Source: Planctomycetaceae bacterium (GTDB lineage: Bacteria; Planctomycetota; Phycisphaerae; Phycisphaerales; SM1A02). From it: a stretch of DNA of 64,000 bases. The translations under genes were made by a program, and so were the position numbers. The stretch covers positions 62,001-126,000 of the forward strand of contig CANLHK010000008.1 of the NCBI GenBank assembly GCA_947490615.1, written 5' to 3'. Each line of letters opens with the position of its first letter. Positions within the stretch are counted from its first letter, which is position 1. The notes beneath the pieces were generated by a model that saw only the letters and a list, made by a program, of their open reading frames with translations, was not told where the DNA came from and searched no databases. Below, in pieces: positions 11,801 through 51,905 of this stretch.

Positions 11801-13813
11801 TCAGCTGCCCGTTGGACAGGCTCCCCAAGACGAGAGGAGCACGCCAAGATCTTGAGCATCGACCACGCCGTCGGCTGTGATGTCCGCCGCAGGATCGTTC
11901 GTAGCCCACGCACTCAAGAGGAGCGCGAGATCTTGTGCAAGGACAGACCCATCGTCGTTGAGATCCGCTGGGCATGGCGGCGTGACGATCGGAGCGAAGA
12001 GCGAGAGTGCGCGCCCGTGCGCTTTCACCGCAACCTCAGCACCGAGCACGCGGCCGGGGAAGTCATCGAAATCAGGATGGATGCCTCCGAAGATGCGCGA
12101 GAGCCCCGACTGGTCTGCGGCGTCGTAGTAGGTCGCCCATTGGAACGAGAAGGTCTCACTCGGTCCATCCTCGAAGACGAGGAACTGGTTCTTCACGCAC
12201 TGGAAGATCCCGAGGCCGCCTGGGAAAAACTCGCTGCCCGTCAGGCGGGTCATCGTCTCAGCGCCAGCGCGGCTGTAGGTCGAGTGACCCGAAACAAATC
12301 CTGGGAACGGCGGCGTGACAAAGGTCGGCCGCTGGTAGGAGACCCAGTTTCCAGCGAGAATCCAGCTAGTTCCTGAGTAGGTGTTCGTCGGACTCACGGG
12401 AGCGCCGGGCCACGCCAGCGCTGCGATCTGGCCTTCGTATCCAGCGAGATCTTCGTGGCGTTGACCGGCAGCGGTTGTGGCAGCGGTGATCAACTCAACG
12501 ACGCCTGGCTCGAGATGCAACCCATCAGCGTGGTAGTGCGGAAGCGCAGCGTCTGTGCATTGGCCGCGCTGCGCCATGTATCGAATCGCACCGATCGGGC
12601 GCATCGTGTCGTAGTGTCCCTTGAGACCCCACGCTGTGATGGCTGCATCATGAAGCGATCCGTTGAGCGTGATGTACGCCTTGAGATCCCACTCAAGATC
12701 CGACAGCACAGGCCCCTTGCCTCCAAGCCTTCGCTCGAAAGCAGGATGATCAGAGATCGTGTTCGCCAACTCGTTCCAGTGTCCTGGAGGCGTCGTTGAG
12801 TTTGGTCCGTCAGCCCAGAACTCCGCGAGGCAGCGCGTCCAGTCGCCGCGCTTGACAAGGTTCGCGGCGTAAGGGAGTCCTGTTGCTGGGTTGAGCGCGC
12901 GACCAACTCCATCGTTGGTGCCGAGCGTGCTGTTGCCCATGACCGAGGGAGAAATGTCGACGAAGACGCCGTCGTCAGGCGTCAACATGCTCGACACTCG
13001 CAACGCGCCTTCGTGTCCAGCGCGCCACTGCACATCGCCAACCCCGTTGAGGACTGGCGGTGGCGGCGCACTCAACAGCACGCCAGGTCGCGCAGGATCC
13101 ATGTCACTCGGCTGAAGACCAAACGGCGTGACGAACCCCCAGAATGGCGCGACTTTCGGCGGGAAACCGCCAGGAATCACATTGCCACCCTGATCGACAA
13201 AGTAGGTCAGCGAAAGCGGTTGGTACCGCGTCGGGAACAGAACATTCGGGTTGAACGGCAGCCCCACGACGAGGGACGGGTTCACATCGGGGTAGGTCCC
13301 CGCGTAAGACGCGTGGTCGACCTCCTCGTGTGAGTTGTCGGTGAGACCTTGTGCAATCACCAGCGCCGCGATGCGGTTGCCGACGGCAGCTGGCGTGTTG
13401 CCCACAGTCGTCGTGACCAGCGGCGAGTAGCCGAGTGCGGTGAGCTTGGCATCGAGGATCACATTGATCGTCGCGACATTCGGGCTCAGCGCAAAGCGCG
13501 ACTTCATCAGGCGATAGGCCGCGTAGGAAATCGATTCTTGCCGTGCGGCAGCGATGTCCTTGGCGGTGATGCGCTCATTGAAGAAGTACTGGCGCACCGC
13601 TGGGTCGTAGGCGGCCCAGGCATCCCACATCGCGACCGACATGTGGAAGAGGTTTCGCGCCTGAATCGGCGGGCGCACGCGATCACGCTTGATCGATTCA
13701 AGCATGGTCTCATCCCATTGCCGAGCAACGGAATGCTGCGCAAGTGCGGGGGTGTACATCAGGCCGACAAGGCCCAAACCGATAGCTGACAACGTCGTCC
13801 TACTGAGGCTCAT
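11801..13813 (-). CDS. Secreted vanadium-dependent haloperoxidase-type PAP2 protein with dockerin-like tail (2)
   Basis: Paralogue of the next gene downstream, sharing the opening H/D-Q-S-V-A-R-Q-W-D-E-T-x-L and the same overall plan. An AAAGGA seven bases upstream favours the ATG at 13813 over the one at 13828. The 670-residue product has a signal peptide ending P-A-L-A-Q, the oxyanion-binding residues R-P-I near 405, S-G-H-S near 507 and G-G-I-H-P-D-F-D-D-F-P-G-R near 578, and a dockerin-like tail (DLNDDGSVLAQDL, DITADGVVDAQDL) ending WGACPTGS. It is divergent from the aminotransferase gene with about 170 bases between. Halide specificity cannot be predicted. Confidence 0.88.
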   Translation of the reverse strand: MSLSRTTLSAIGLGLVGLMYTPALAQHSVARQWDETMLESIKRDRVRPPIQARNLFHMSVAMWDAWAAYDPAVRQYFFNERITAKDIAAARQESISYAAYRLMKSRFALSPNVATINVILDAKLTALGYSPLVTTTVGNTPAAVGNRIAALVIAQGLTDNSHEEVDHASYAGTYPDVNPSLVVGLPFNPNVLFPTRYQPLSLTYFVDQGGNVIPGGFPPKVAPFWGFVTPFGLQPSDMDPARPGVLLSAPPPPVLNGVGDVQWRAGHEGALRVSSMLTPDDGVFVDISPSVMGNSTLGTNDGVGRALNPATGLPYAANLVKRGDWTRCLAEFWADGPNSTTPPGHWNELANTISDHPAFERRLGGKGPVLSDLEWDLKAYITLNGSLHDAAITAWGLKGHYDTMRPIGAIRYMAQRGQCTDAALPHYHADGLHLEPGVVELITAATTAAGQRHEDLAGYEGQIAALAWPGAPVSPTNTYSGTSWILAGNWVSYQRPTFVTPPFPGFVSGHSTYSRAGAETMTRLTGSEFFPGGLGIFQCVKNQFLVFEDGPSETFSFQWATYYDAADQSGLSRIFGGIHPDFDDFPGRVLGAEVAVKAHGRALSLFAPIVTPPCPADLNDDGSVLAQDLALLLSAWATNDPAADITADGVVDAQDLGVLLSSWGACPTGS

Positions 13814-41207: not shown

Positions 41208-43515
41208 ATGATCACCTCGGAATCACCGGCACTCTTCAGCATCCTGCTTGCAGCGCTCACAGCGTTGGGGCTCGCCATTGTGCTGCTCCTGCTCTGGCGT
41301 CGACGCCAAGAGATGGAGCACTACGAGAAGAGCCATCGAGCGCGGAAGCCACAAGGCACGACTCATTCATCCAGAGATCGATCTCTCACAGTGCATCGGT
41401 TGCGGCGCCTGCGTGCGCGCGTGTCCCGAAGAGGGCGTGCTCGATCTATTGCACGGTCAGGCGGTCGTGGTGCACGGTGCACGCTGTGTTGGACACGGTC
41501 GCTGTGCGGAGGTCTGTCCCGCAGGAGCGATTGCACTCACCTTTGCGGATCTCGGCAAGCGCACGGATCTCCCAGCCATCACCGAAGAGTTCGAAGCGGT
41601 CGATGTTCCGGGGCTCTTCATTGCTGGCGAACTCACAGGATTCTCCCTCGTGCGCACCGCCGTGTCCCACGGCGCGATTGCTGCGGATTCCGCGCACCGC
41701 CGAGTGATCGCCGCGCGCACCGCCGTTCCCGTGGCCATCGGTGCAGCCTCGGAAGCCTCGAACGATTCGATCGATCTCCTCATCGTTGGTGTGGGGCCCG
41801 CCGGAATGTCCTGCGCATTGCGAGCGAAGGAACTCGGTCTGAGCTTCGAACTCATCGAACAAGCTGAGGAAATCGGCGGCACGGTCGCTGCCTACCCGCG
41901 CAAGAAGATGGTGATGACGCAGCCGATGATGCTGCCGCTGCATGGTCGGTTGACACGCCTCGAGTACCTGAAGGAAGACCTCGTCGACCTCTGGAAGGAG
42001 CTCATCGCGCTCCACTCACTTCCAGTGCGCACAGGTGTCCGACTCAAAGACCTCGCCCGCGACAGCGATGGGATCTTCACTGCACAGACCAGCGCTGGAG
42101 TCGTCCGCGCCCGCACCGTCTGCCTCGCGTTGGGCCGTCGCGGCACACCGCGCAAACTCGGCGTGCCCGGCGAAGAACTGCCCAAGGTTCTCTACAACCT
42201 GCTCGACGCAGAGAGCTATCAAGGACGACGCATCCTCGTGGTTGGCGGCGGTGACAGCGCTGCGGAGGCTGCGATTGGTCTTGCTGAGCAACCTGGCAAC
42301 ATCGTGACGCTGAGTGCGCGTGGGCGCGATCTTTCACGCATCAAGTCGAAGAACGATGCGCGACTCAAGAAGTCGGTTCAGGAGAAGAAGCTCCAGCTGC
42401 TGCTCGACAGCAACACGACGCGCATCGATGAAGAGTCGGTCACGCTTCGACACTCCGTCGATGGCGTCGAGCAGACGCTCACGCTTCCCAACGACGATCT
42501 CTTTGTCTTCATCGGTGGAGATCCGCCCTTCGAGCTTCTGAAGCGCGCGGGCGTTTCCTTTGATCCTGCGCGACGGCCGAAACCCGCCGTCGTCGCCGAC
42601 AGCACCACTCCGCTGATCTGGGCGACAAGCCTGCTGCTGCTCGTTGCGATCGGCATGCTCGTCTGGGCTTCGCTCAATCAAAGTTACTACGGCGCGTCGC
42701 CTGCGCTGCGGACGATGGCCGAAGATCACCGCTGGCTGCGACCGTCAGGCGCGTTCGGCCTGACCATGGCGCTCGCAGCGGTTGGTCTGTTCTTGTGGAA
42801 CCTCGCCTATCTCGCTCGCAAGAATCGCGTGCTCGCGCGCGTTCTGCCGGGTTCGTTGCGCTTCTGGATGGGCTCCCATGTCTTCACGGGCATCGCGAGC
42901 TTCCTCTGCGTCATCGTGCACGCAGGCTTCAACTACCGCATGACACTCGGTGGCTACGCCTTTGTGGCACTCGGTGTCGTGCTCATCGCAGGCATGATTG
43001 GGCGTTACTTTTACGCCGCCGTTCCCCACGCCGCCAATGGGCGAGAGCTCGATCTTGAGGAACTGCGTGCGCGACTCGCCAGTCTCGCCACGACCTGGGA
43101 CAAGTCAAGTCGCGGACTTGGCTCCACGGTGCGCGAGCGCATCGAGTCGCTCATTCGTCAGGATCGCTGGCACCCCTCGCTCTTCGCGCGCATCGTCGGG
43201 CTCGGCACCGCACACCTGCGCATTCGTCGCGCGCTGCGAGAACTTCGACTGAACCCGGACTATGCCGAAGTTCCCGCGGCAGAGCGAGAGGAGCTCATGG
43301 AGCTCGCCAAGCGATCACTTCGGCTCACCGTGCAGATCGCCCACTTCGAAGAGCTGCGCGCACTGCTCGGCTCCTGGAGGTTCTTCCATCGCTGGTTGGC
43401 GCTGCTCATGCTCCTTCTCGTGCTCGCGCACATCGCCATCTCGCTGCGTTACGCCAAACTCGATTGGCCACTTCCAGCGTGGGTGCTTCCTTCTGAGAAG
43501 GTGGCAAGTCGATGA
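41208..43515 (+). CDS. Ferredoxin-FAD oxidoreductase with membrane b-type-heme-like domain; one-base frame change near its start
   Basis: The plausible protein starts at the ATG at 41208 with a membrane helix (ALFSILLAALTALGLAIV), but that frame ends at 41867; the rest of the protein is in the +1 frame, joined between 41340 and 41356. In the second frame (open from a TTG at 41248) are: ferredoxin-type C-x2-C-x2-C-x3-C-P (C-I-G-C-G-A-C-V-R-A-C-P), a second site in which His replaces one Cys (C-V-G-H-G-R-C-A-E-V-C-P), an FAD motif V-G-V-G-P-A-G-M-S, a NAD(P)H motif V-V-G-G-G-D-S-A-A, and from about residue 455 a membrane part with histidines in paired helices (S-H-V-F-T-G-I, I-V-H-A-G-F, F-F-H-R-W-L, L-A-H-I-A-I). 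Likely role: passing electrons between cytoplasmic carriers and the membrane. Confidence 0.78.
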
Positions 43516-45581
43516 AATCGAAGCCGCTCTCGCGCGTGCTGATGTACCTCTGCCTGTTCGCGGTGCTTGCTGCGGCATGGTGGAGCTATCAACGCAGCGC
43601 GAGTCCTGGCCCGCTCCACAGCTCACACGCTGGAGTCGCGCTGCTTGCGGGCGACGATGGTTGCGCGGCCTGCCATGAGGGCACGGACTTCGCCGCAGGA
43701 AGCTCGATGGCGGTCGCGTGCAACGAGTGTCACGAACCGATTCGGCGGCAACTCGCGGATCACACGGGCATTCACGGCGCGCTGGCTTCTGAGCTCGCGA
43801 GCGATTGCGCCGAGTGTCACCACGAACACATCGGTGACACGCTTCCGCTGGTCTCGTTTACCGCGTTTCATCGCGCGGGAATCGGCGCACCGGAGTTGTA
43901 CGACCATGCCCACACCGGCGGCATCCAACTGACTGGTCGCCACATAGAACTTGAGTGCGCTGGTTGCCACATCAATGCGCGCAACAGCGCACTTGTCGAA
44001 GGACAGCCACGCTTCCTTGGACTTTCTGAGGAGTGCGCCACATGCCACAACGATGTGCACAAGGGTGAGCTCGGTCCAAAGTGCGCGGACTGCCATGGCC
44101 AGGAGAAGCCCTTCAAGGACGCTGCGCTCTACGCGCACCCCAAGACTTTCCCGCTCGTCGATGGTCACGCGCATCTCCAATGCAAGGAATGCCACACGAC
44201 GCCGCAGGAGTACACGGGGCTTCGCCTCGACTGTGCATCCTGCCATCAGGACGAGTACGACCGCTCGACCAAACCGTCGCACGCCGTGGCGAAGCTCGGC
44301 ACCGACTGCGCGTCGTGTCACGGTGTGCTGGCATGGAACATCACGACCTACACCCACAACAAGCGGTTTGCGCTTGAGGGTGCGCACGCGTCGGTGCAAT
44401 GCGCGCAGTGTCACAGCGCCGGCGCTGCTCAGCAGTCCGTCGAAGCGCACGCAGAGAACCCGAGTTGCGTCGTGTGCCACCGCTCGCCGCACGACGAGAA
44501 GCTCGTGCAAGCCGCGCATCGCGTTCGTGGAACCCTCCGAGACGACTGCGCGGTCTGCCACGAACCTGCGGCCAAGGCGTGGAGCGACGCCAACGCCCGC
44601 ATGACTCCCATCCTGCACGCCAGCACGGGATTTGTACTCACTGCACCGCACGACAAGCAGACTTGCGCCGAATGTCACCCGGCCGCGCGCGTTGATCCAT
44701 CGCCCGCAACCCACGATGCGACGCGCTGGGCGGTCGCCTTTCCAGGTCGCACTCAGGATTCCTGCGAAGCCTGTCACAAGGACCCTCACCGAGGTCAATT
44801 TGTTGATTCCACCACAGGCAACGACTGCCTCGCTTGCCACGCGCGCGCTGCGTTCTTGCCCACGACCTTCGACACCGCACTGCACGCTCGGTGCGCATTT
44901 CCCCTTGACGGCAGCCACAAAGCCGTCGCCTGCGCGGCTTGCCATCCCGTGGTGGATGGTGTGCGAAAGTTCGTTGGCGTGAAGAGTGCCTGCATCGACT
45001 GCCACGACGATGTCCACAAGGGATCCTTCGATCGCAACACCGCGCTCACCACGGTCAACGGGAAGATCGGCTGCGCGCGTTGCCATACCACGGAGTCCTT
45101 TGCGCGCGTCAACTGGAGTGCGAGCGACCACGCGCTGTGAACCAGCGAGCCGTTGACTGGCAAGCATGCCACCGCAGCTTGCAACGATTGCCATCGCCGC
45201 GAGAAACCGATCGGCCGCGCGCCGGCGCCTTATTCAGCCGCTCCCAAAGCCTGCGCGGCGTGCCACGAGGATGTGCACCTTGGTCAGTTCCGCATCGCGC
45301 TTGCAGTGGGCGCTGCAGTTGATCGCGCTGCTGCGCAGACCGATTGCGCCCGCTGCCACACGAGTACAGAGAGCTTCAAGCTGGTGACCTTTGATCACCA
45401 ACGCGACTCGCGCTTTGCGCTCGACGACGACCACCGCACGCTCGCCTGTGCGGCCTGCCACAAACCAACTGAGGTCGATGGTCGCGCGGTCATTCGCTAC
45501 AAGCCGCTTGGCGTGACTTGCGCGGAATGCCACGACGCTCGCGCGCTCAAACCAAGGCCTTTGAAAGAGGTGTCGCCATGA
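43512..45581 (+). CDS. Membrane-anchored multiheme cytochrome c, 23 CXXCH, interrupted by one in-frame TGA
   Basis: The ATG overlaps the stop of the oxidoreductase gene. An N-terminal hydrophobic anchor (VLMYLCLFAVLAAAWW) precedes 18 CXXCH motifs up to a TGA at 45138-45140. The same frame continues without further stop to 45581, adding five CXXCH, with the usual spacing and a T-G-K-H-A-T-A-A-C-N-D-C-H that continues the pattern. The segment before and after the TGA aligns as one domain if the TGA is read as Trp (DHAL-W-TSEPLTGKH). Length without interruption is 689 residues. Predicted role: periplasmic electron transfer, probably anchored to the inner membrane. The start and stop overlap both neighbours by four bases. 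Confidence 0.8.
45138..45140 (+). other. In-frame TGA in the 23-heme cytochrome gene
   Basis: TGA is followed by A (TGA-ACC). The frame downstream keeps coding character and heme motifs through to 45581. A single G-to-A change from TGG (Trp) would create it. Confidence 0.85.
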
Positions 45582-47284
45582 TGCGATGGACGCACGAGCT
45601 TCTCACGCGTTGCCTGCGACGCCTCGCGCAGAGCGCCTGCTTGCTCTGCGTCTGCGTTGCGACCCTGCTGTCTGTTGGCAGCACTGCCATGGCGCAGGAT
45701 CGAATCGACGCGACGGTCGTCAGCGTGTCAGGACGAAGCGTGTACATCAACGCGGGACGCGATGCTGGCGTACTCTCGGGCGCTCGCGTCGTCTTTCGAC
45801 TGAAGTCGGGCACACTCGTGGAAGCGACCATCGCTGATGTCTCTGCGAACAACGCGCGCGCGGAACTCACCGAAGATTCGCTCGTGCCGTCACCCGACGA
45901 CCACGCGACTGTGGAGGTCGAGACTCCAGCAACGAATCCGCCCGCCGGCACAGCACCGACACCGACCGTGCCGCGCGCTGTTCCAGAGCACCCTCCTTGG
46001 CAACAGACGGAAGGCGCGCGAAAGCCCGACACACCTTTGCTCTCGCCCGCATTCGGCTCGCGCCCGGAAGACCAGCCGATGGTGGTGAAGGGGCGCACCT
46101 ATTCAACGATGCGCGTCATCCGCGATCTCGAGCACGACAGCGACTACATCTTCGCACGCACTGGACTTTGGCTCGACATTCGCAATCCCATGCGAGACGG
46201 CGGCAGGCTGCGCTTTCAAGGGGACACCGACTACCGTTCTTCCAGCACCGACTTTGACAGCGAGAGCGAGACGCAGGCGCGAGTGCAGCGCTTCAGCTAC
46301 GCCTGGGGACTCGACAAAGACGCGCCATTTCGCGGCGAAGTTGGGCGTTTCTACTCGTCGTATCTCCCTGAGCTCGGCACCGTCGACGGTATCGAAGGCG
46401 CGTTGCGCCTGGAGAACGGCTGAAGTCTTGGCGCTGGCGGCGGTCTCTATCCAACGACCACGCAGGATCTCGTCGACAGCGACGATATGGGCTTTCACCT
46501 CTTTGCGGACTATCAATCCGACGGCACGGCGCGCGCCTTCCAGGGAACCATTGGCTTTCAACAGACCTTCTACCAAGGTGAAGCGGATCGCTCGCTGGTG
46601 CTCGGGCGCATCATCGCCAATCCCAGCGACGACATCCGCGTGTTCGGACTGGTGATGATTGATCTCTACGGTTCCGATGAGATCATCAAGTCGAGCTCTG
46701 CCGAAGTCACGCAATTGGTGGCCCAGGCGAGTTTCCGCTTGAGTCCCACGAGCGGCGCGATCGCCTCGGTCATCCACACAACCTGGCCCGAGCTCAAACG
46801 CGAAGAGTATGTCACGCTGCCTGAAGCCCTCATCGCCGATGGCTATGTCGATCGTCTCTCCGCGTCGTGGTGGACCAAACTCTCGAAAGCGTGGCGCGTG
46901 TCGCTGCGATCGCACTACTGGCAAGATCAAAACGGCGATGGATTCGGCGGCGAAGCGAGTGTCGACTGGTCGCTCCCCACCGCGTCGCCAAGTTCGCTCT
47001 ATGCCTCGGTCTATCACGAGGAGTCCGCCTACACCACGGGCGATGGTCTTCGCGCGCAGGTGCAAACGCAGCTCGGCAGCGCGCGCCTGTTCGTGGGCTA
47101 CGACGGGTTCGCCTACTCCACCGACACTGCCACCACCGACGACAACTTCTACCTCCGACATACTCTGCGCGCCGATGTCGGCTGGGGTGAAGGGCAGTGG
47201 TACTGGGATGTCGACGCCTCGTATACGCTCGGTGACCTCGAGCAATCTGTGACGATCGGTCTCACCGTGCAGTACCGCTTCTAG
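45578..47284 (+). CDS. Outer-membrane beta-barrel (porin-like) protein, interrupted by one in-frame TGA
   Basis: The ATG at 45578 overlaps the cytochrome stop (ATGA) with AGAGG upstream. The product has a signal peptide (A-M-A-Q-D near residue 42), a compact beta domain (VSGRSVYINAGRDAGVLSGARVVF), a Pro/Thr linker, then alternating strands typical of a barrel, for example LRFQGDTDYRSSS, ARVQRFSYAW, WRVSLRSHYW, YWDVDASYTLG and the terminal V-Q-Y-R-F with aromatic C-terminus, as outer-membrane proteins have. A TGA at 46421-46423 splits the frame; reading continues in phase (E-N-G-[W]-S-L-G-A-G-G-G). Segments 45578-46423 and 46427-47284 would otherwise be two incomplete products. Position between two multiheme cytochromes suggests a conduit porin. 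Confidence 0.72.
46421..46423 (+). other. In-frame TGA in the beta-barrel gene
   Basis: TGA-AGT in the frame of the barrel gene. The sequence before (LRLENG) and after (SLGAGGGLYP) forms an unbroken strand-turn-strand pattern if the codon is Trp. One G-to-A change from TGG explains it. Confidence 0.85.
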
Positions 47285-47296
47285 GCGAGGATCACC

Positions 47297-48994
47297 ATGA
47301 AACGCGTTCAACAGATCATCCTCGCGTCGCTCGCACTCGTCGGCGTGGTCGCGTGCGCCAATCTCATCCCTCGCAAGGGCTGGGGTCCCAATCAAGGCCC
47401 CGTGGTTCCGCACGATTCCTTCCCCGCTGACTGCGCCCTCTGCCATGAGTCGGGTTCGTGGAACAAGATCAAGGCTGACTTCACCTTCGATCACGAGAAG
47501 GAAACCGGCGTCCTTCTGCAGGGCGCGCACAACGACGCGCAGTGCTTGCTCTGCCACAACGATCGCGGTCCCGTCAAACAGTTCGCTGACCGCGGTTGCC
47601 AGGGCTGTCATGAAGATGTGCATGTCGGTCGCTTAGGCATGCTCTGCGCGCAGTGCCACAACGAAGAGACCTGGAGCCCGCTGCAGAAGATCGCTGAACA
47701 CGCGCGAACGCGCTTTCCACTCATCGGCGGCCACGCCGCGGTGGATTGCAACGCCTGCCACCCGCAAGCCCTCGAAGGAAACTACGAGACACGCGGCATC
47801 GAGTGCGAGAGTTGTCACGCCGACGATGCGACCCGCGCTACGAATCCCGACCACATCGGCATGAACCTCACCACCAACTGTGAGCGCTGCCACAATCCGG
47901 TTGCGTGGGATCCTGCGCTGTTTGAGCATCCCGCCTCCTTCCCGCTCACGCTTGGTCACGGCGGCAGCGGATGCATCGATTGCCACACGACGCCCGGAGT
48001 CTTCACGGGTCTGAGCACCGACTGCGCGAGTTGTCACCTTGATTCCTATCAAGCGACGACCAACCCCAATCACGCCGCGGCAGGCTTCGCCACAACCTGT
48101 GCCACTTGCCACACAACGGTCCAGTGGTCTGGTGGAAGCTTCATCCACAGTTCGACCTTCCCGCTTGCACAGGCGCATGCTGTTCCAGCGTGCGTCGACT
48201 GCCACACGACGCCTGGCGTCTTCGCAGGACTCTCGACCGCGTGCGTGAGTTGTCACTTGCCCGAATACCAAGCGACCGCGAGCCCCAACCACACCGCTGC
48301 TGGATTCTCCACTGATTGCGCGCTCTGCCATGCGCCCACGCAATGGCCAGGCGCGGGCTTCTCGCATCCAGGGAGTTTCCCACTTGCACAGGCGCATGCT
48401 GTTCCCGCGTGCAGTGATTGCCACACCACACCAGGTACCTTCACAGGACTCTCGACCGCGTGCGTGAGTTGTCACTTGCCTGACTACCAAGCCACGACGA
48501 ACCCGAATCACACCGCTGCTGGTTTCTCCACCGATTGCGTGCAATGCCACGCGACCACCATCTGGGCTGGCGCGGGCTTCACGCATCCTGCGACCTTCCC
48601 GCTCGCGCAGGCGCACGCCGTGCCCGCTTGCACCGATTGCCACACCGTTCCAGGAACCTTCACGGGACTCTCGACCGAATGTGTGAGTTGCCACTTGCCC
48701 GAGTATCAAGCGACCACGAATCCAAATCACACGGGTGCAGGTTTCCCAACGGCGTGCGCGCAATGCCATCCCATCACACTCTGGATCAACGGCAACTTCA
48801 CGCACCCGTCGAGCTTCCCGCTCACGCAGGCGCACGCGGTTCCGCCCTGCAGCGCCTGTCACACGACGCCAGGCGTCTTCACGGGACTTTCCACAGCGTG
48901 CATCAATTGCCACCAAGACGACTACCAGCGCGGACACAACAGCAGCGGCGTCTCGCAGAACTGTCGGAACTGCCACAACACTTCGGGTTGGTGA
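47297..48994 (+). CDS. Multiheme cytochrome c lipoprotein, 22 CXXCH, with 73-residue repeats
   Basis: GCGAGG ahead of the ATG at 47297 acts as ribosome-binding site. The 565-residue product has a lipoprotein signal with lipobox V-G-V-V-A-C at about 20. I counted 22 CXXCH motifs. From about residue 215 the chain consists of 73-residue repeats, each with three CXXCH (D-C-H-T-T-P-G, S-C-H-L-P, Q/L-C-H) and a conserved F-P-L-A-Q-A-H-A-V-P-A-C start; five units, the last partial. The lipid anchor may fix it to the outer membrane, and it could be the outermost part of an electron conduit. The first half lacks the repeat. The gene is intact and ends 35 bases from the convergent CcsA gene. Confidence 0.92.
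   Translation: MKRVQQIILASLALVGVVACANLIPRKGWGPNQGPVVPHDSFPADCALCHESGSWNKIKADFTFDHEKETGVLLQGAHNDAQCLLCHNDRGPVKQFADRGCQGCHEDVHVGRLGMLCAQCHNEETWSPLQKIAEHARTRFPLIGGHAAVDCNACHPQALEGNYETRGIECESCHADDATRATNPDHIGMNLTTNCERCHNPVAWDPALFEHPASFPLTLGHGGSGCIDCHTTPGVFTGLSTDCASCHLDSYQATTNPNHAAAGFATTCATCHTTVQWSGGSFIHSSTFPLAQAHAVPACVDCHTTPGVFAGLSTACVSCHLPEYQATASPNHTAAGFSTDCALCHAPTQWPGAGFSHPGSFPLAQAHAVPACSDCHTTPGTFTGLSTACVSCHLPDYQATTNPNHTAAGFSTDCVQCHATTIWAGAGFTHPATFPLAQAHAVPACTDCHTVPGTFTGLSTECVSCHLPEYQATTNPNHTGAGFPTACAQCHPITLWINGNFTHPSSFPLTQAHAVPPCSACHTTPGVFTGLSTACINCHQDDYQRGHNSSGVSQNCRNCHNTSGW
47939..48994 (+). repeat. 219-bp tandem repeat in the lipoprotein cytochrome gene
   Basis: Units begin at the TTC of F-P-L-A/T at 47939, 48158, 48377, 48596 and 48815; each interval is exactly 219 bases (73 codons) and the fifth unit stops at the gene end. 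The units at 48158-48814 are the most alike. Perfect in-frame periodicity points to duplication by recombination. Confidence 0.9.
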
Positions 48995-49029: not shown

Positions 49030-50724
49030 TCAAGGCGTGGCAGCAAGACTTCGCCAGCGCGTCGTCGGCACCAGCGCTACGCAGAGCAAGGCGAGCTGCA
49101 CGATGCAGAAACCAAGCAGTGCGAAGACAGCCGAGTCCATGAATCCGTAGGAGTGCAGTCCGACGCCAAGCATGTTGGTCCCGAACCAGGACCACGCCGT
49201 CACGATGTTTCCACCGATGGCCAGCATCGCCACTCCGCGGTCGCGGACCATGCCGCCCCAGCGCGCGTGCAGGATCAAGAGGTTCCAAAGCACGATGAGC
49301 GCAGCGCCGTTTTCCTTGGGATCCCATCCCCAAAATCGTCCCCACGACTGGTCGGCCCAGATGCCGCCCAGAACGGTGCCGACAAAACTCGCGAGCGCTG
49401 CGAAGCAAATCACGCCGTAGATCATGCGCGGCAGAGCCTTCATCGCTTCGCCGCGCAAGAGCTTGGTGCACACACCTCCAACGACATAGAAGATCGCGAT
49501 GAAGCCTGCGAGGAAGGTCGCGGAGTATCCGATGGTGACGACGACGACATGCGTCGCGAGCCAAAAGTTCGAATCGAGCACCGCCTGCATCATCTCCATG
49601 GTGTCGCCCGACGCCGAGAGATTGTGTGCCACGACCAGCGTCGCGAAACCGATCAAACTCGCCGCGAGCGAAAGCACGCCGATGCGAGCAAACCACTCTC
49701 CGAGCAGAGCACCGGGAATGCACGCCCAACCGATGAACACCGCAGAGCTGTAGAGGTTGGTGACTGGTGGTCGACCTTGGAGGTAGATGCGCGCCGTCAA
49801 GCCAAGAGTATGAAGGACGAACGCGAGCGCGATCACTCCGAGTGCGCTGCGCAGAAGGCTCGGCTTCCAGCGCTCTGCAGAGAGCGGCGCAACCAGCATG
49901 GCGATGCAGCCGAGCAGGAACGCGACGAGGTAGAGCAAGGACGCTTGGTAGAACGGCTCACATCGACTGAGGAAGACTTCAAGCGCGCTGCGCTCCTCGG
50001 CCTCCGCGTGCGCAACAGCTAAGAGCGCGTGGTAGGCGGAAACAGCCTGCTCACAAGCTGCCGCGTCTCCCGCTGCGTAGGCAACCAGCACAGCACGAAT
50101 GGCCTGCGCGGAGGCGCCTGTCGCTGGTTGACCGTGAGGGTCCGCCGCAAGAAGCGGCGCCCACTCTTCACCATTGGCCAGCGGCGCGGCGAGGTACGGC
50201 GTGCGAAGGCTCTGCACCTCAACGAACTCGGCGAGCTTCCCGTAGAGGTCACTGATGGCGCGCTGGAATGGATCCTGTTGCTTGCGCGAAATCGCGTTGG
50301 CGAGTTGTGATTGGCGCACCACCTCTTCGAGCTTGGGTGCAATCTCCGTCCAACTAAATCGAGTGCGCGACGCTTCGGTGATGGCCAACAGTGACTTCAC
50401 ATCAGGATGATCGATTCGGAACACGCGACGCTTGGCTGCCTCGTCTGGATTCGTCCACAGTTCCAACAACCACTCAATCGCTGGACGCATGGTGCCGTCC
50501 GCGTCGTAGGTCTGCCGACCGCTCAATCGCAAGAGCGTGTTGCGGGCGAAGGAATCAAGCGGCTTGGTGCGGCCACCCGCGGACACGGGAATGCGTGCGA
50601 TTCCATCGAGGCTCACTCCGTCGACGCGCGCGACGGGCTTCAGTGCGCTGGCGCCGATCGAAACGAGGAACGCCACCACAAAGACGACGACCAACGCTGG
50701 GAACCATCGTGCGAGCGTCTTCAT
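49030..50724 (-). CDS. ccsA: Cytochrome c maturation protein CcsA/ResC-type
   Basis: The 564-residue protein from the ATG at 50724 (AGAGGAAGG upstream) has an N-terminal helix, a soluble helical part with V-S-A-G-G-R-T-K-P-L-D-S-F-A, and a C-terminal membrane half with the heme-handling W-G-R-F-W-G-W-D-P-K-E-N motif (WWD type) near 450 and histidines V-A-H-N and T-H-V-V-V. CcsA exports and attaches heme to apocytochromes in the ResB/ResC system. Its start overlaps the ResB stop. The system lies head to head with the multiheme operon, converging with only 35 bases between stops. Confidence 0.93.
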   Translation of the reverse strand: MKTLARWFPALVVVFVVAFLVSIGASALKPVARVDGVSLDGIARIPVSAGGRTKPLDSFARNTLLRLSGRQTYDADGTMRPAIEWLLELWTNPDEAAKRRVFRIDHPDVKSLLAITEASRTRFSWTEIAPKLEEVVRQSQLANAISRKQQDPFQRAISDLYGKLAEFVEVQSLRTPYLAAPLANGEEWAPLLAADPHGQPATGASAQAIRAVLVAYAAGDAAACEQAVSAYHALLAVAHAEAEERSALEVFLSRCEPFYQASLLYLVAFLLGCIAMLVAPLSAERWKPSLLRSALGVIALAFVLHTLGLTARIYLQGRPPVTNLYSSAVFIGWACIPGALLGEWFARIGVLSLAASLIGFATLVVAHNLSASGDTMEMMQAVLDSNFWLATHVVVVTIGYSATFLAGFIAIFYVVGGVCTKLLRGEAMKALPRMIYGVICFAALASFVGTVLGGIWADQSWGRFWGWDPKENGAALIVLWNLLILHARWGGMVRDRGVAMLAIGGNIVTAWSWFGTNMLGVGLHSYGFMDSAVFALLGFCIVQLALLCVALVPTTRWRSLAATP

Positions 50725-51905
50725 GCGACCTTCCTCTTCACGGACGCAGAGAGGCGCACGCCGAAGTGCCAGAGCAGACCGATCGTCACGAGCGTGCACG
50801 AAAGGTACGGGAGCAGCCAACCAGGATTGCGCACCACTTGGAGCACGGTGCCTGAGTCATCGGGCGCGAACGAGGCTTGGTAGAAAGTCTCTCCCGCGTA
50901 TCGCAGCGGGTTGTTCATGGAAATGAGCACCTCTCGGTCCACATGCTGTGCCGTATCAGTGAGCCGAACCAAGCTCGAGAAGTTGCGCGCCGTTTCGGTG
51001 CCCACGAATCGATCGTGTTTGAAGTCGAGTAGTTGAACCGAGTACGGGCGGTAGTTCCGTTCGAAGCGCAGGGCGATCTGAAACCGCTTGGTGCCGACCT
51101 CAACCGTCTGCATGCCGATGAGTCGCGGCGTCACGAGGTAGGTTCCAAGTGTCGTCTCGCCTTGCTTGAACTCAAGGTACGCAGCGGGAACATCGGAATC
51201 CGATGCTTCCACGCCCGTCGCGACTCCGACCGCAACAGCGGCGACCTGCGTTCCCGTGCCAGCGGTCGCGCGCGCGAGTTGTTGCTTGGATGCCTGCATC
51301 GGACCGAGCACGCGCGAGTTGGGCATCCACTCGATCACGCGGACAGTGAAGGGGAGCAAACCGTTGGTGATGAGCGGCGACTCACGATCGGCCAGCAGTC
51401 GTGCGGGCACGACCACCACGAGGTCGTCTGCTGGATCCGACGCATCGATGACGGCAAGTTCACTGGTCCGACCATCTTCGATGTAGTTGGCCGACGCGCC
51501 CTCGGCAATGGTCATGGTGCCTTCTTTGGCCAAGGCACCCGTCACAAACTCTCCGACGAGCAAGAGCAGCACACCCGCGTGCGTCACGATCATGCCCATG
51601 CGTTTCCACGAGAGCTTGAAGCGCACGATGTGCGCCGCGAGGAGATTCACGAACAGGCAGACACCAAGCGTGAGTCCGCCTGGAAACGGAAAGACGCCAG
51701 GAATCCGCAGCACCTTCTCAGGGACAAAGAGCTGGAACGGAATCAGAACAGCGATCGATCGAAAGTATCGATCGACCACCATCCACACGCCTTCTTGAGT
51801 CTGAGCCAAGGTGCCCGCGAGGATGAGCACGATCGACAGCGCGAACAACACGACGGCCAGTCGCAGTGAAGAGATCGCGCGAAGTGCCGCTGGCATGCTG
51901 TTCAT
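50721..51905 (-). CDS. resB: Cytochrome c biogenesis protein ResB
   Basis: The 394-residue protein has ResB-type topology: helix about 13-32, a helix pair about 76-120 (L-T-L-G-V-C-L-F-V-N-L-L-A-A-H-I-V, then T-H-A-G-V-L-L-L-L-V-G-E-F), a large periplasmic beta-rich domain and a C-terminal helix before K-R-K-V-A. It partners CcsA in heme delivery and thiol handling. Start and stop overlap the lipoprotein gene and ccsA, so this is a tight three-gene operon. Confidence 0.88.
   Translation of the reverse strand: MNSMPAALRAISSLRLAVVLFALSIVLILAGTLAQTQEGVWMVVDRYFRSIAVLIPFQLFVPEKVLRIPGVFPFPGGLTLGVCLFVNLLAAHIVRFKLSWKRMGMIVTHAGVLLLLVGEFVTGALAKEGTMTIAEGASANYIEDGRTSELAVIDASDPADDLVVVVPARLLADRESPLITNGLLPFTVRVIEWMPNSRVLGPMQASKQQLARATAGTGTQVAAVAVGVATGVEASDSDVPAAYLEFKQGETTLGTYLVTPRLIGMQTVEVGTKRFQIALRFERNYRPYSVQLLDFKHDRFVGTETARNFSSLVRLTDTAQHVDREVLISMNNPLRYAGETFYQASFAPDDSGTVLQVVRNPGWLLPYLSCTLVTIGLLWHFGVRLSASVKRKVA

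Follow-up and report, generated by a model that had tools for sequence, protein, structure and literature searches.

The analyzed window is a 64,000-nucleotide (nt) stretch of DNA of Planctomycetaceae bacterium (assembly GCA_947490615.1; 3.26 Mb in 28 contigs), corresponding to bases 62001–126000 of contig C8 (CANLHK010000008.1). It contains one run of four forward-strand genes (positions 41208–48994), which encode (i) an oxidoreductase, (ii) a cytochrome with 23 CXXCH motifs, (iii) a barrel protein and (iv) a lipoprotein with 22 CXXCH motifs (genes 1–4; Table 1). This gene content, and the total of 45 CXXCH motifs, agree with a preliminary description of the region, which was made from the sequence alone and proposed a candidate trans-envelope electron-transfer operon.

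Gene 1 combines Fer4 and Pyr_redox_3 domains (Pfam), indicative of iron-sulfur (Fe-S) and flavin adenine dinucleotide (FAD) centers, with a membrane C-terminal half, while the products of genes 2 and 4 contain Cytochrome_C7 repeats (Pfam). The 45 hemes of the two cytochromes are spaced at one per ~26–30 residues; shuffling of the same residues (2000 shuffles) gave a mean of ~0.25 CXXCH motifs, with maxima of 4 and 3. Both proteins exceed the cut-off (30 bits) of the MtrC/MtrF domain II/IV model PF22113, with 37.3 bits for gene 2 and 42.2 bits for gene 4, but no single stretch passes it alone and the multiheme repeats may inflate these scores. The barrel protein has no Pfam family match. A search of the genome with Paired_CXXCH_1 (PF09699) produced no matches although cytochromes are present; this model is too weak.

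Table 1. Positions within the window of the four-gene operon, its motifs and lesions, and the adjacent cytochrome c maturation genes
Feature	Position	Strand	Source
Gene 1: N-terminal transmembrane helix (41208 frame), frameshift, 4Fe-4S/FAD/diheme cytochrome b oxidoreductase (main frame 41350–43515)	41208–43515	+	
Frameshift: 20 nt missing by comparison with two relatives; precise site alignment-dependent	41337–41338	+	
First WX3HX13H heme-b motif; W506, H510, H524 (counted from 41350)	42865–42921	+	Gene 1 alignment, 32 homologs
Second WX3HX13H heme-b motif; W676, H680, H694 (counted from 41350)	43375–43431	+	
Gene 2: 23-CXXCH wire, hydrophobic N-terminus (membrane anchor or signal), in-frame TGA inside	43512–45581	+	
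In-frame TGA of gene 2; Trp in two intact relatives	45138–45140	+	
Gene 3: hydrophobic N-terminus, small beta domain, predicted outer-membrane beta-barrel (22 strands in the model of an intact homolog), in-frame TGA inside	45578–47284	+	
In-frame TGA of gene 3; Leu (G013) or Phe (G069) in relatives	46421–46423	+	
Gene 4: 22-CXXCH lipoprotein cytochrome, lipobox VVAC (from sequence), frame intact	47297–48994	+	
ccsB: system II cytochrome c maturation, convergent, intact	49030–50820	-	
resB: partner of ccsB, intact	50721–51905	-	

To find related loci, genome contigs were scanned with a three-sequence alignment of gene 1. This search yielded 69 loci: 47 of planctomycete type (four of them titled only "bacterium" or "uncultured bacterium"), 12 from other phyla and 10 weak matches of the Fe-S/FAD type. 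Thirteen of the 47 (L017, L021, L022, L024, L031, L039, L041, L050, L055, L057, L067, L071 and L072) were excluded from the synteny count, either because the contig breaks off within or close to the cluster or, in the case of L072, because the operon is deleted. Barrels were recognized by BLAST to the window barrel (at least 140 bits). All four genes are present in each of the 34 testable loci, and in 32 they are contiguous in the order of the window; the exceptions are L052, which has a 3.5-kb gap, and L069, where a cytochrome, the barrel and a second cytochrome lie upstream. The preliminary description had held that failure of the four genes to co-occur in other genomes would refute the proposal; no such failure was observed, and relatives are present in other planctomycetes.

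In the complete loci the first cytochrome (the putative wire) contains 23, 26 or 29 CXXCH motifs and the second one 7 to 46. Two complete genomes, Pla86 and Pla163, carry the cluster. A match to gene 1, in some cases perhaps to its FAD half alone, was detected at E 1e-100 or better in 43 of 392 sampled Planctomycetota genomes, whose gene neighborhoods were viewed in part only. In the gene 1 tree the window groups with L014 (the locus of genome G013), and then within a set of eight holding Phycisphaerales. FAD-only matches in four genomes (G063, G075, G085 and G094) were rejected as a different protein, with no multi-CXXCH frames in the 19-kb stretches inspected. A second form of the planctomycete cluster (L044, 15534–19670; also L042, L045–L049 and L052) has, instead of the large lipoprotein cytochrome, genes for a 7-heme and then an 11-heme protein (the latter of ~930–1010 residues); in L052 the last gene is cut by the end of the stretch. 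The L044 protein scores 78 bits with the ExtM model (cut-off 800).

The inner-membrane protein was compared with that of the PCC3 type of conduit, described from Gallionellaceae, Leptothrix and others (He et al. 2017, PMC5566968) and defined there by a porin, two cytochromes, one extracellular and one periplasmic (the latter with a median of 21 hemes), and a five-helix protein lacking annotation, with WX3HX13H motifs on helices 3 and 5. An alignment of 32 gene 1 homologs (L043 and L052 were left out, though cluster-bearing) revealed that both WX3HX13H motifs (W550, H554, H568 and W720, H724, H738; L014 numbering) are invariant. In the predicted structure of gene 1 (predicted local distance difference test score, pLDDT, 81) the motifs lie on helices 547–568 and 687–745, which would be the third and the fifth provided that the membrane helices are the long ones of the second half. 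When profiles were compared, the C-terminal half matched stand-alone proteins of Gallionellaceae and Deltaproteobacteria with a probability of 99.9 (E 2e-34), and the Gallionellaceae protein alone with 96 (E 4e-9). The reverse search, with the Gallionellaceae inner-membrane protein, recovered frames of 748–923 amino acids in Pla86 and Pla163 (E 3e-6 to 3e-4). Motifs and profiles together identify the C-terminal half of gene 1 as an inner-membrane protein of the PCC3 type.

In the window and in the 32 homologs this protein is fused to an FAD/Fe-S module. The sequences GxGPxG and GGGxSA (with a nearly invariant Asp) and two Arg residues following the latter are invariant in the alignment; we take GGGxSA and the two Arg to be in keeping with NAD(P)H. 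The FAD fold is most similar to YpdA (Z 21.0, root-mean-square deviation (rmsd) 8.2, 267 aligned), and matches thioredoxin and ferredoxin-NADP reductases as well. The second Fe-S motif of gene 1 (41485–41515) reads C-x5-C-x3-CP, with His replacing the usual second Cys, and is possibly a 3Cys-1His cluster.

Homologs of the FAD/Fe-S half occur as separate genes outside Planctomycetota. The Gallionellaceae isolate GS36 (L059) encodes an FAD/4Fe-4S protein of 435 residues that is homologous to the first half of gene 1 (profile probability of 100 with the FAD half). Its gene is divergent to the inner-membrane gene, in a cluster with 27-heme and 11-heme cytochromes and a 751-amino-acid gene with a barrel-like end. 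In a sample of 80 Gallionellaceae genomes (thresholds E 1e-30 for the inner-membrane protein and E 1e-80 for the FAD protein), the FAD protein was found in all 32 genomes containing the inner-membrane protein versus 2 of the 48 without it (Fisher p 2.6e-20). The two genes lie within 1.5 kb of each other in 28 of the 32, and farther apart or on other contigs in the remaining four. A stand-alone cytochrome b is present near the FAD gene in 11 of the 12 loci of other phyla; none was seen in L060, whose contig begins 1.3 kb away. Such fusion in one phylum combined with a neighboring pair in others is a classical sign of a working partnership. Since the FAD/Fe-S half occurs as a linked separate gene in Gallionellaceae, NAD(P)H rather than quinol is suggested as the electron source, and outward as the direction of flow.

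No description of an FAD partner of PCC3, or of the fused oxidoreductase, was found in a search of open-access literature, and neither "ferredoxin" nor "pyridine" occurs in a word search of the main text of PMC5566968. The kinship of the fused oxidoreductase to the PCC3 inner-membrane protein, the tight link of the FAD gene to that protein and the decay series described below were likewise not found in that search.

The barrel was modeled from the intact homolog of G013 (pLDDT 83). The model contains a small N-terminal beta domain, 22 strands and a terminal Phe, and matches outer-membrane barrels, PirA being the best (Z 17.1, rmsd 4.7, 360 aligned). The model supports an outer-membrane barrel, as initially proposed, but does not prove that the protein is a porin. 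Only one chance match was obtained when solved relatives were sought, and MtrB-type barrels are absent among the structural matches listed, which excludes nothing. The N-terminal domain of gene 3 (45700–45920) matches ExtJ weakly (19 bits; NCBIfam cut-off 52.5). A similar stretch is readable by eye at the start of a Flavobacteriales barrel, and a shared docking domain is possible.

Structurally, the barrel is best matched by receptors for siderophores and vitamins and by substrate porins. It might therefore be an ordinary uptake channel, with the cytochromes reducing a periplasmic or outer-membrane substrate (selenite, tellurite or peroxide) rather than serving extracellular respiration. Weak matches to models of the Ext selenite/tellurite operon point the same way (ExtJ, ExtN and ExtO for window proteins, ExtM for the protein of a relative), all of them well below the curated NCBIfam cut-offs. 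We regard this explanation as quite unlikely: none of the 34 testable loci has the barrel without the two cytochromes, or these without the barrel, and 45 closely spaced hemes would fit a wire better than a reductase, as argued in PMC5566968.

Directly downstream of gene 4, on the opposite strand and outside the region covered by the preliminary description, lie ccsB and resB, and both are also found within 10 kb of the cluster in 9 of the 34 testable loci. That they serve only this operon is unproven. Cytochrome c domains are present in all 16 genomes of the genus, whereas ccsB was detected (at E 1e-60) in four; another route of cytochrome c maturation is therefore probable in the genus.

Genes 1–3 of the window contain lesions. 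Intact references were provided by G013 (same genus; 74% in gene 1; the same locus was fetched as L014) and G069 (same order; 55%), in both of which gene 1 is a full-length frame without stops. Compared with G013 and with a gene 1 stub in L072, gene 1 of the window is 20 nt shorter just past the N-terminal helix, which causes a frameshift. The in-frame TGA of gene 2 splits the hemes (18 before, 5 after) at a position occupied by Trp in both references, and that of gene 3 lies approximately half-way along the frame, so no complete barrel would be formed. TGA is the stop codon of 19 of the 27 window genes judged real; as the main stop in the window it was ruled out as a Trp codon, and for the same reason readthrough of the in-frame TGAs is unlikely.

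Approximately 44 kb of the window (19.9–64.2 kb) are syntenic with a 45.7-kb contig of G013. None of the 22 syntenic flanking genes has an interior frameshift or stop, the lesions being confined to genes 1–3; in flanking genes 5083_6162 and 15266_16204 an aligned stop occurs only within the first 25 columns and was taken to be upstream of the starts. Rows of the lesion scan that were set aside comprise two weak stop-bearing frames (2484_2906 and 8756_9067), two frames antisense to resB (32272_32616 and 32617_32898) and a stray second match (11813–12019). The scan filter missed resB, which was judged intact from its frame and from comparison with relatives, and the scan chose wrong-strand frames for genes 2 and 3, whose lesions rest on direct reading of the frames and on alignments of the relatives.

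Comparison within the genus revealed three states of the operon. The four genomes with ccsB are the present one, G013, G008 and G009; beside this gene the operon is broken in the first, intact in G013, and deleted in G008 save for a gene 1 stub. The stub (L072, 7302–7590; on the same contig, C37, of G008) comprises ~95 codons with an internal insertion, is joined to the 3′ end of ccsB, and is the deletion scar of the whole operon. In G009, ccsB is found in two contig pieces, with no operon remnant on them. Judged from these alignments, the copy in the analyzed genome is probably dead, and recent inactivation by the three lesions is the most economical interpretation.

It is improbable that the operon is functional here, with the 20-nt deletion and the two TGAs being assembly errors, minority strain variants or codons that are read through, as the preliminary description had allowed. 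Several observations are compatible with function: no lesion affects gene 4, ccsB or resB, the assembly could stem from a metagenome and mix strains, and one in-frame TGA is also present in the gene 1 homologs of three other planctomycete assemblies (G461:C390, G102:C101 and G115:C101), reflecting decay or assembly errors. In L043 (11613–12104), part of gene 1 matches in a second, overlapping frame, and this oxidoreductase may carry frameshifts too. The presence of three lesions in three of the four operon genes, with none in the 22 flanking genes, argues for inactivation, as do the commonness of TGA as a stop, the loss of the operon except for a stub in one congener, and the length of the deletion, 20 nt not being a usual base-calling error.

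We consider it probable that the four genes specify an electron conduit across the envelope that resembles PCC3, is fed by NAD(P)H with outward flow, and is disabled in this genome. Electrons from cytoplasmic NAD(P)H (or ferredoxin) would pass via FAD and the Fe-S centers of gene 1 to two hemes b in its membrane half. The 23-heme wire of gene 2 would pick them up at the periplasmic face and carry them across the periplasm, and the barrel of gene 3, presumably in a complex with the cytochromes, would provide the passage of the wire through the outer membrane. The multiheme lipoprotein of gene 4, predicted to be placed on the surface, would deliver the electrons to an outside acceptor (candidates are a metal oxide, a humic substance, another cell or oxygen), and CcsB and ResB would attach the hemes. 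The logic of such a conduit would be that of an NADPH oxidase with a cytochrome wire replacing oxygen, the quinone pool being by-passed. Outward flow is favored by both redox potential and membrane potential.

The same conduit could operate inward, with the surface cytochrome oxidizing a reduced partner, Fe(II) or Mn(II). Gene 1 would then donate the electrons to quinone or, working against the gradient, reduce NAD(P)+. We judge this unlikely: at neutral pH, Fe(II) can reduce NAD(P)+ only in an uphill reaction, and inward-moving electrons oppose the membrane potential. Close relatives of the system do occur in Gallionellaceae, a family of iron oxidizers, and PCC3 has been proposed as a possible route of Fe(II) oxidation (PMC5566968). 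For strain ES-1, however, lower levels of both PCC3 clusters were reported with Fe(II) than with thiosulfate (PMC8788666), which favors outward flow.

Several points weigh against an NAD(P)H-fed exporter of the PCC3 kind that is inactive in this genome. (i) The direction of flow is not encoded in the sequence, and the inner-membrane gene of PCC3 copy 2 in Sideroxydans CL21 is reported to have risen when the cells could oxidize iron, as expected for inward flow; the same source states that the function of PCC3 is still without experimental test (PMC12442390). (ii) Quinol could likewise be a reaction partner of the heme-b half, as proposed by the authors of PCC3 (PMC5566968). (iii) The L059 cluster was assigned to PCC3 by gene content and family, not by a published PCC3 sequence. 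(iv) No homology is detectable between the planctomycete barrel and the barrel-like protein of L059 (probability 0.2; one Gallionellaceae protein compared). (v) The ratios of nonsynonymous to synonymous change (pN/pS) of genes 1–3 (0.30–0.44) overlap those of 12 neighbors (0.12–0.37) and do not rise past the stops, which would fit decay of recent date but also stops that are errors or belong to minority alleles. (vi) The gene 1 core (41350–43515) is open, and the protein might be produced from another start. As to the fourth point, the barrel is homologous to that of the Flavobacteriales locus L058 (probability 96, E 1.8e-9) and not detectably to the Gallionellaceae protein; the wire and the entry are thus common to both systems, while the barrel may have been exchanged.

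More tentatively, and with somewhat less than even confidence, we propose that all PCC3-type conduits may be NAD(P)H-driven exporters by-passing the quinone pool. In these, the diheme-b protein would be fed by an FAD/Fe-S protein, to which it is fused in Planctomycetota but not in Proteobacteria and Bacteroidota, where the two are separate; this would be an entry to extracellular electron transfer that resembles NADPH oxidase, and the system would now be in the process of being lost in this planctomycete genus. The inner-membrane entry proteins CymA, CbcL and ImcH are described as quinol oxidases or quinone reductases (PMC6295460). The conserved FAD/Fe-S partner, fused in one phylum and adjoining in another, offers a testable donor for the PCC3 conduit. 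The present data also extend the system to many planctomycete families and provide, from a single genus, examples of the operon being intact, broken or deleted.

The preliminary description regarded the architecture as unlike the Mtr and Pio systems, which holds, and as possibly an undescribed conduit type, which is not supported in that form. It overlooked the closest relative, PCC3 of the iron-oxidizing Gallionellaceae: an inner-membrane cytochrome b combined with very-high-heme wires belongs to that published type (PMC5566968). Moreover, porin-cytochrome clusters of Planctomycetota have already been reported from the Oslofjord tunnel (PMC10732223), several of the loci analyzed here carrying its OFTM names, and from karst, where ferredoxin-NADP reductase genes lie beside some of them (PMC13264449). 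The Group 1 clusters of the latter report resemble the window operon in their ~20-strand barrel and in a nearby ferredoxin-NADP reductase (7 of 11), and differ in being based on one large decaheme cytochrome, not a 23-heme wire. MtrCAB, MtoAB and PioAB share the logic of a conduit across the outer membrane, and genes 2 and 4 pass the Pfam cut-off for MtrC/MtrF domain II/IV, though with scores that the repeats may inflate. In Mtr, however, a decaheme wire is combined with an MtrB/PioB barrel, in contrast to the 23-heme wire and the barrel without a Pfam match found here; the DmsE/MtrA-type NCBIfam model scored 41.5 bits (cut-off 192.2).

In the Flavobacteriales loci L058 (9989–20215) and L062, one run comprises a cytochrome b, an FAD/Fe-S protein, two cytochromes with 20 and 13 hemes, and a ccsB/resB gene. 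These clusters, for which we know of no published name, differ from the planctomycete ones in gene order, in an oxidoreductase split into two genes, and in a fused ResB-CcsB at the end of the run. PCC4, reported to include Planctomycetes, has the same histidine motif in its inner-membrane protein and, in subgroup II, an Fe-S gene upstream; as described, it differs in that it lacks an extracellular cytochrome and that its periplasmic ones contain 4, 5 and 10 hemes (PMC5566968).

The likeness to PCC3 is closest. Both systems have (i) an inner-membrane protein of the diheme-b type with two WX3HX13H motifs on helices 3 and 5 (in the planctomycete protein, as we read the gene 1 model), (ii) a very-high-heme wire (21, 24 or 27 hemes in Gallionellaceae (PMC10734462) versus 23, 26 or 29 in the planctomycete loci), (iii) a second, variable multiheme cytochrome, represented here by gene 4 with its lipobox and 22 CXXCH motifs, (iv) a barrel, predicted by the model in the planctomycete system, and (v) a linked FAD/Fe-S protein, found in this analysis. 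They differ in that the planctomycete barrel, modeled with 22 strands, is smaller than those of PCC3, for which up to 42 are predicted, and in that the inner-membrane protein, a separate chain of ~300 residues in PCC3, is fused to the FAD/Fe-S module in the planctomycete loci.

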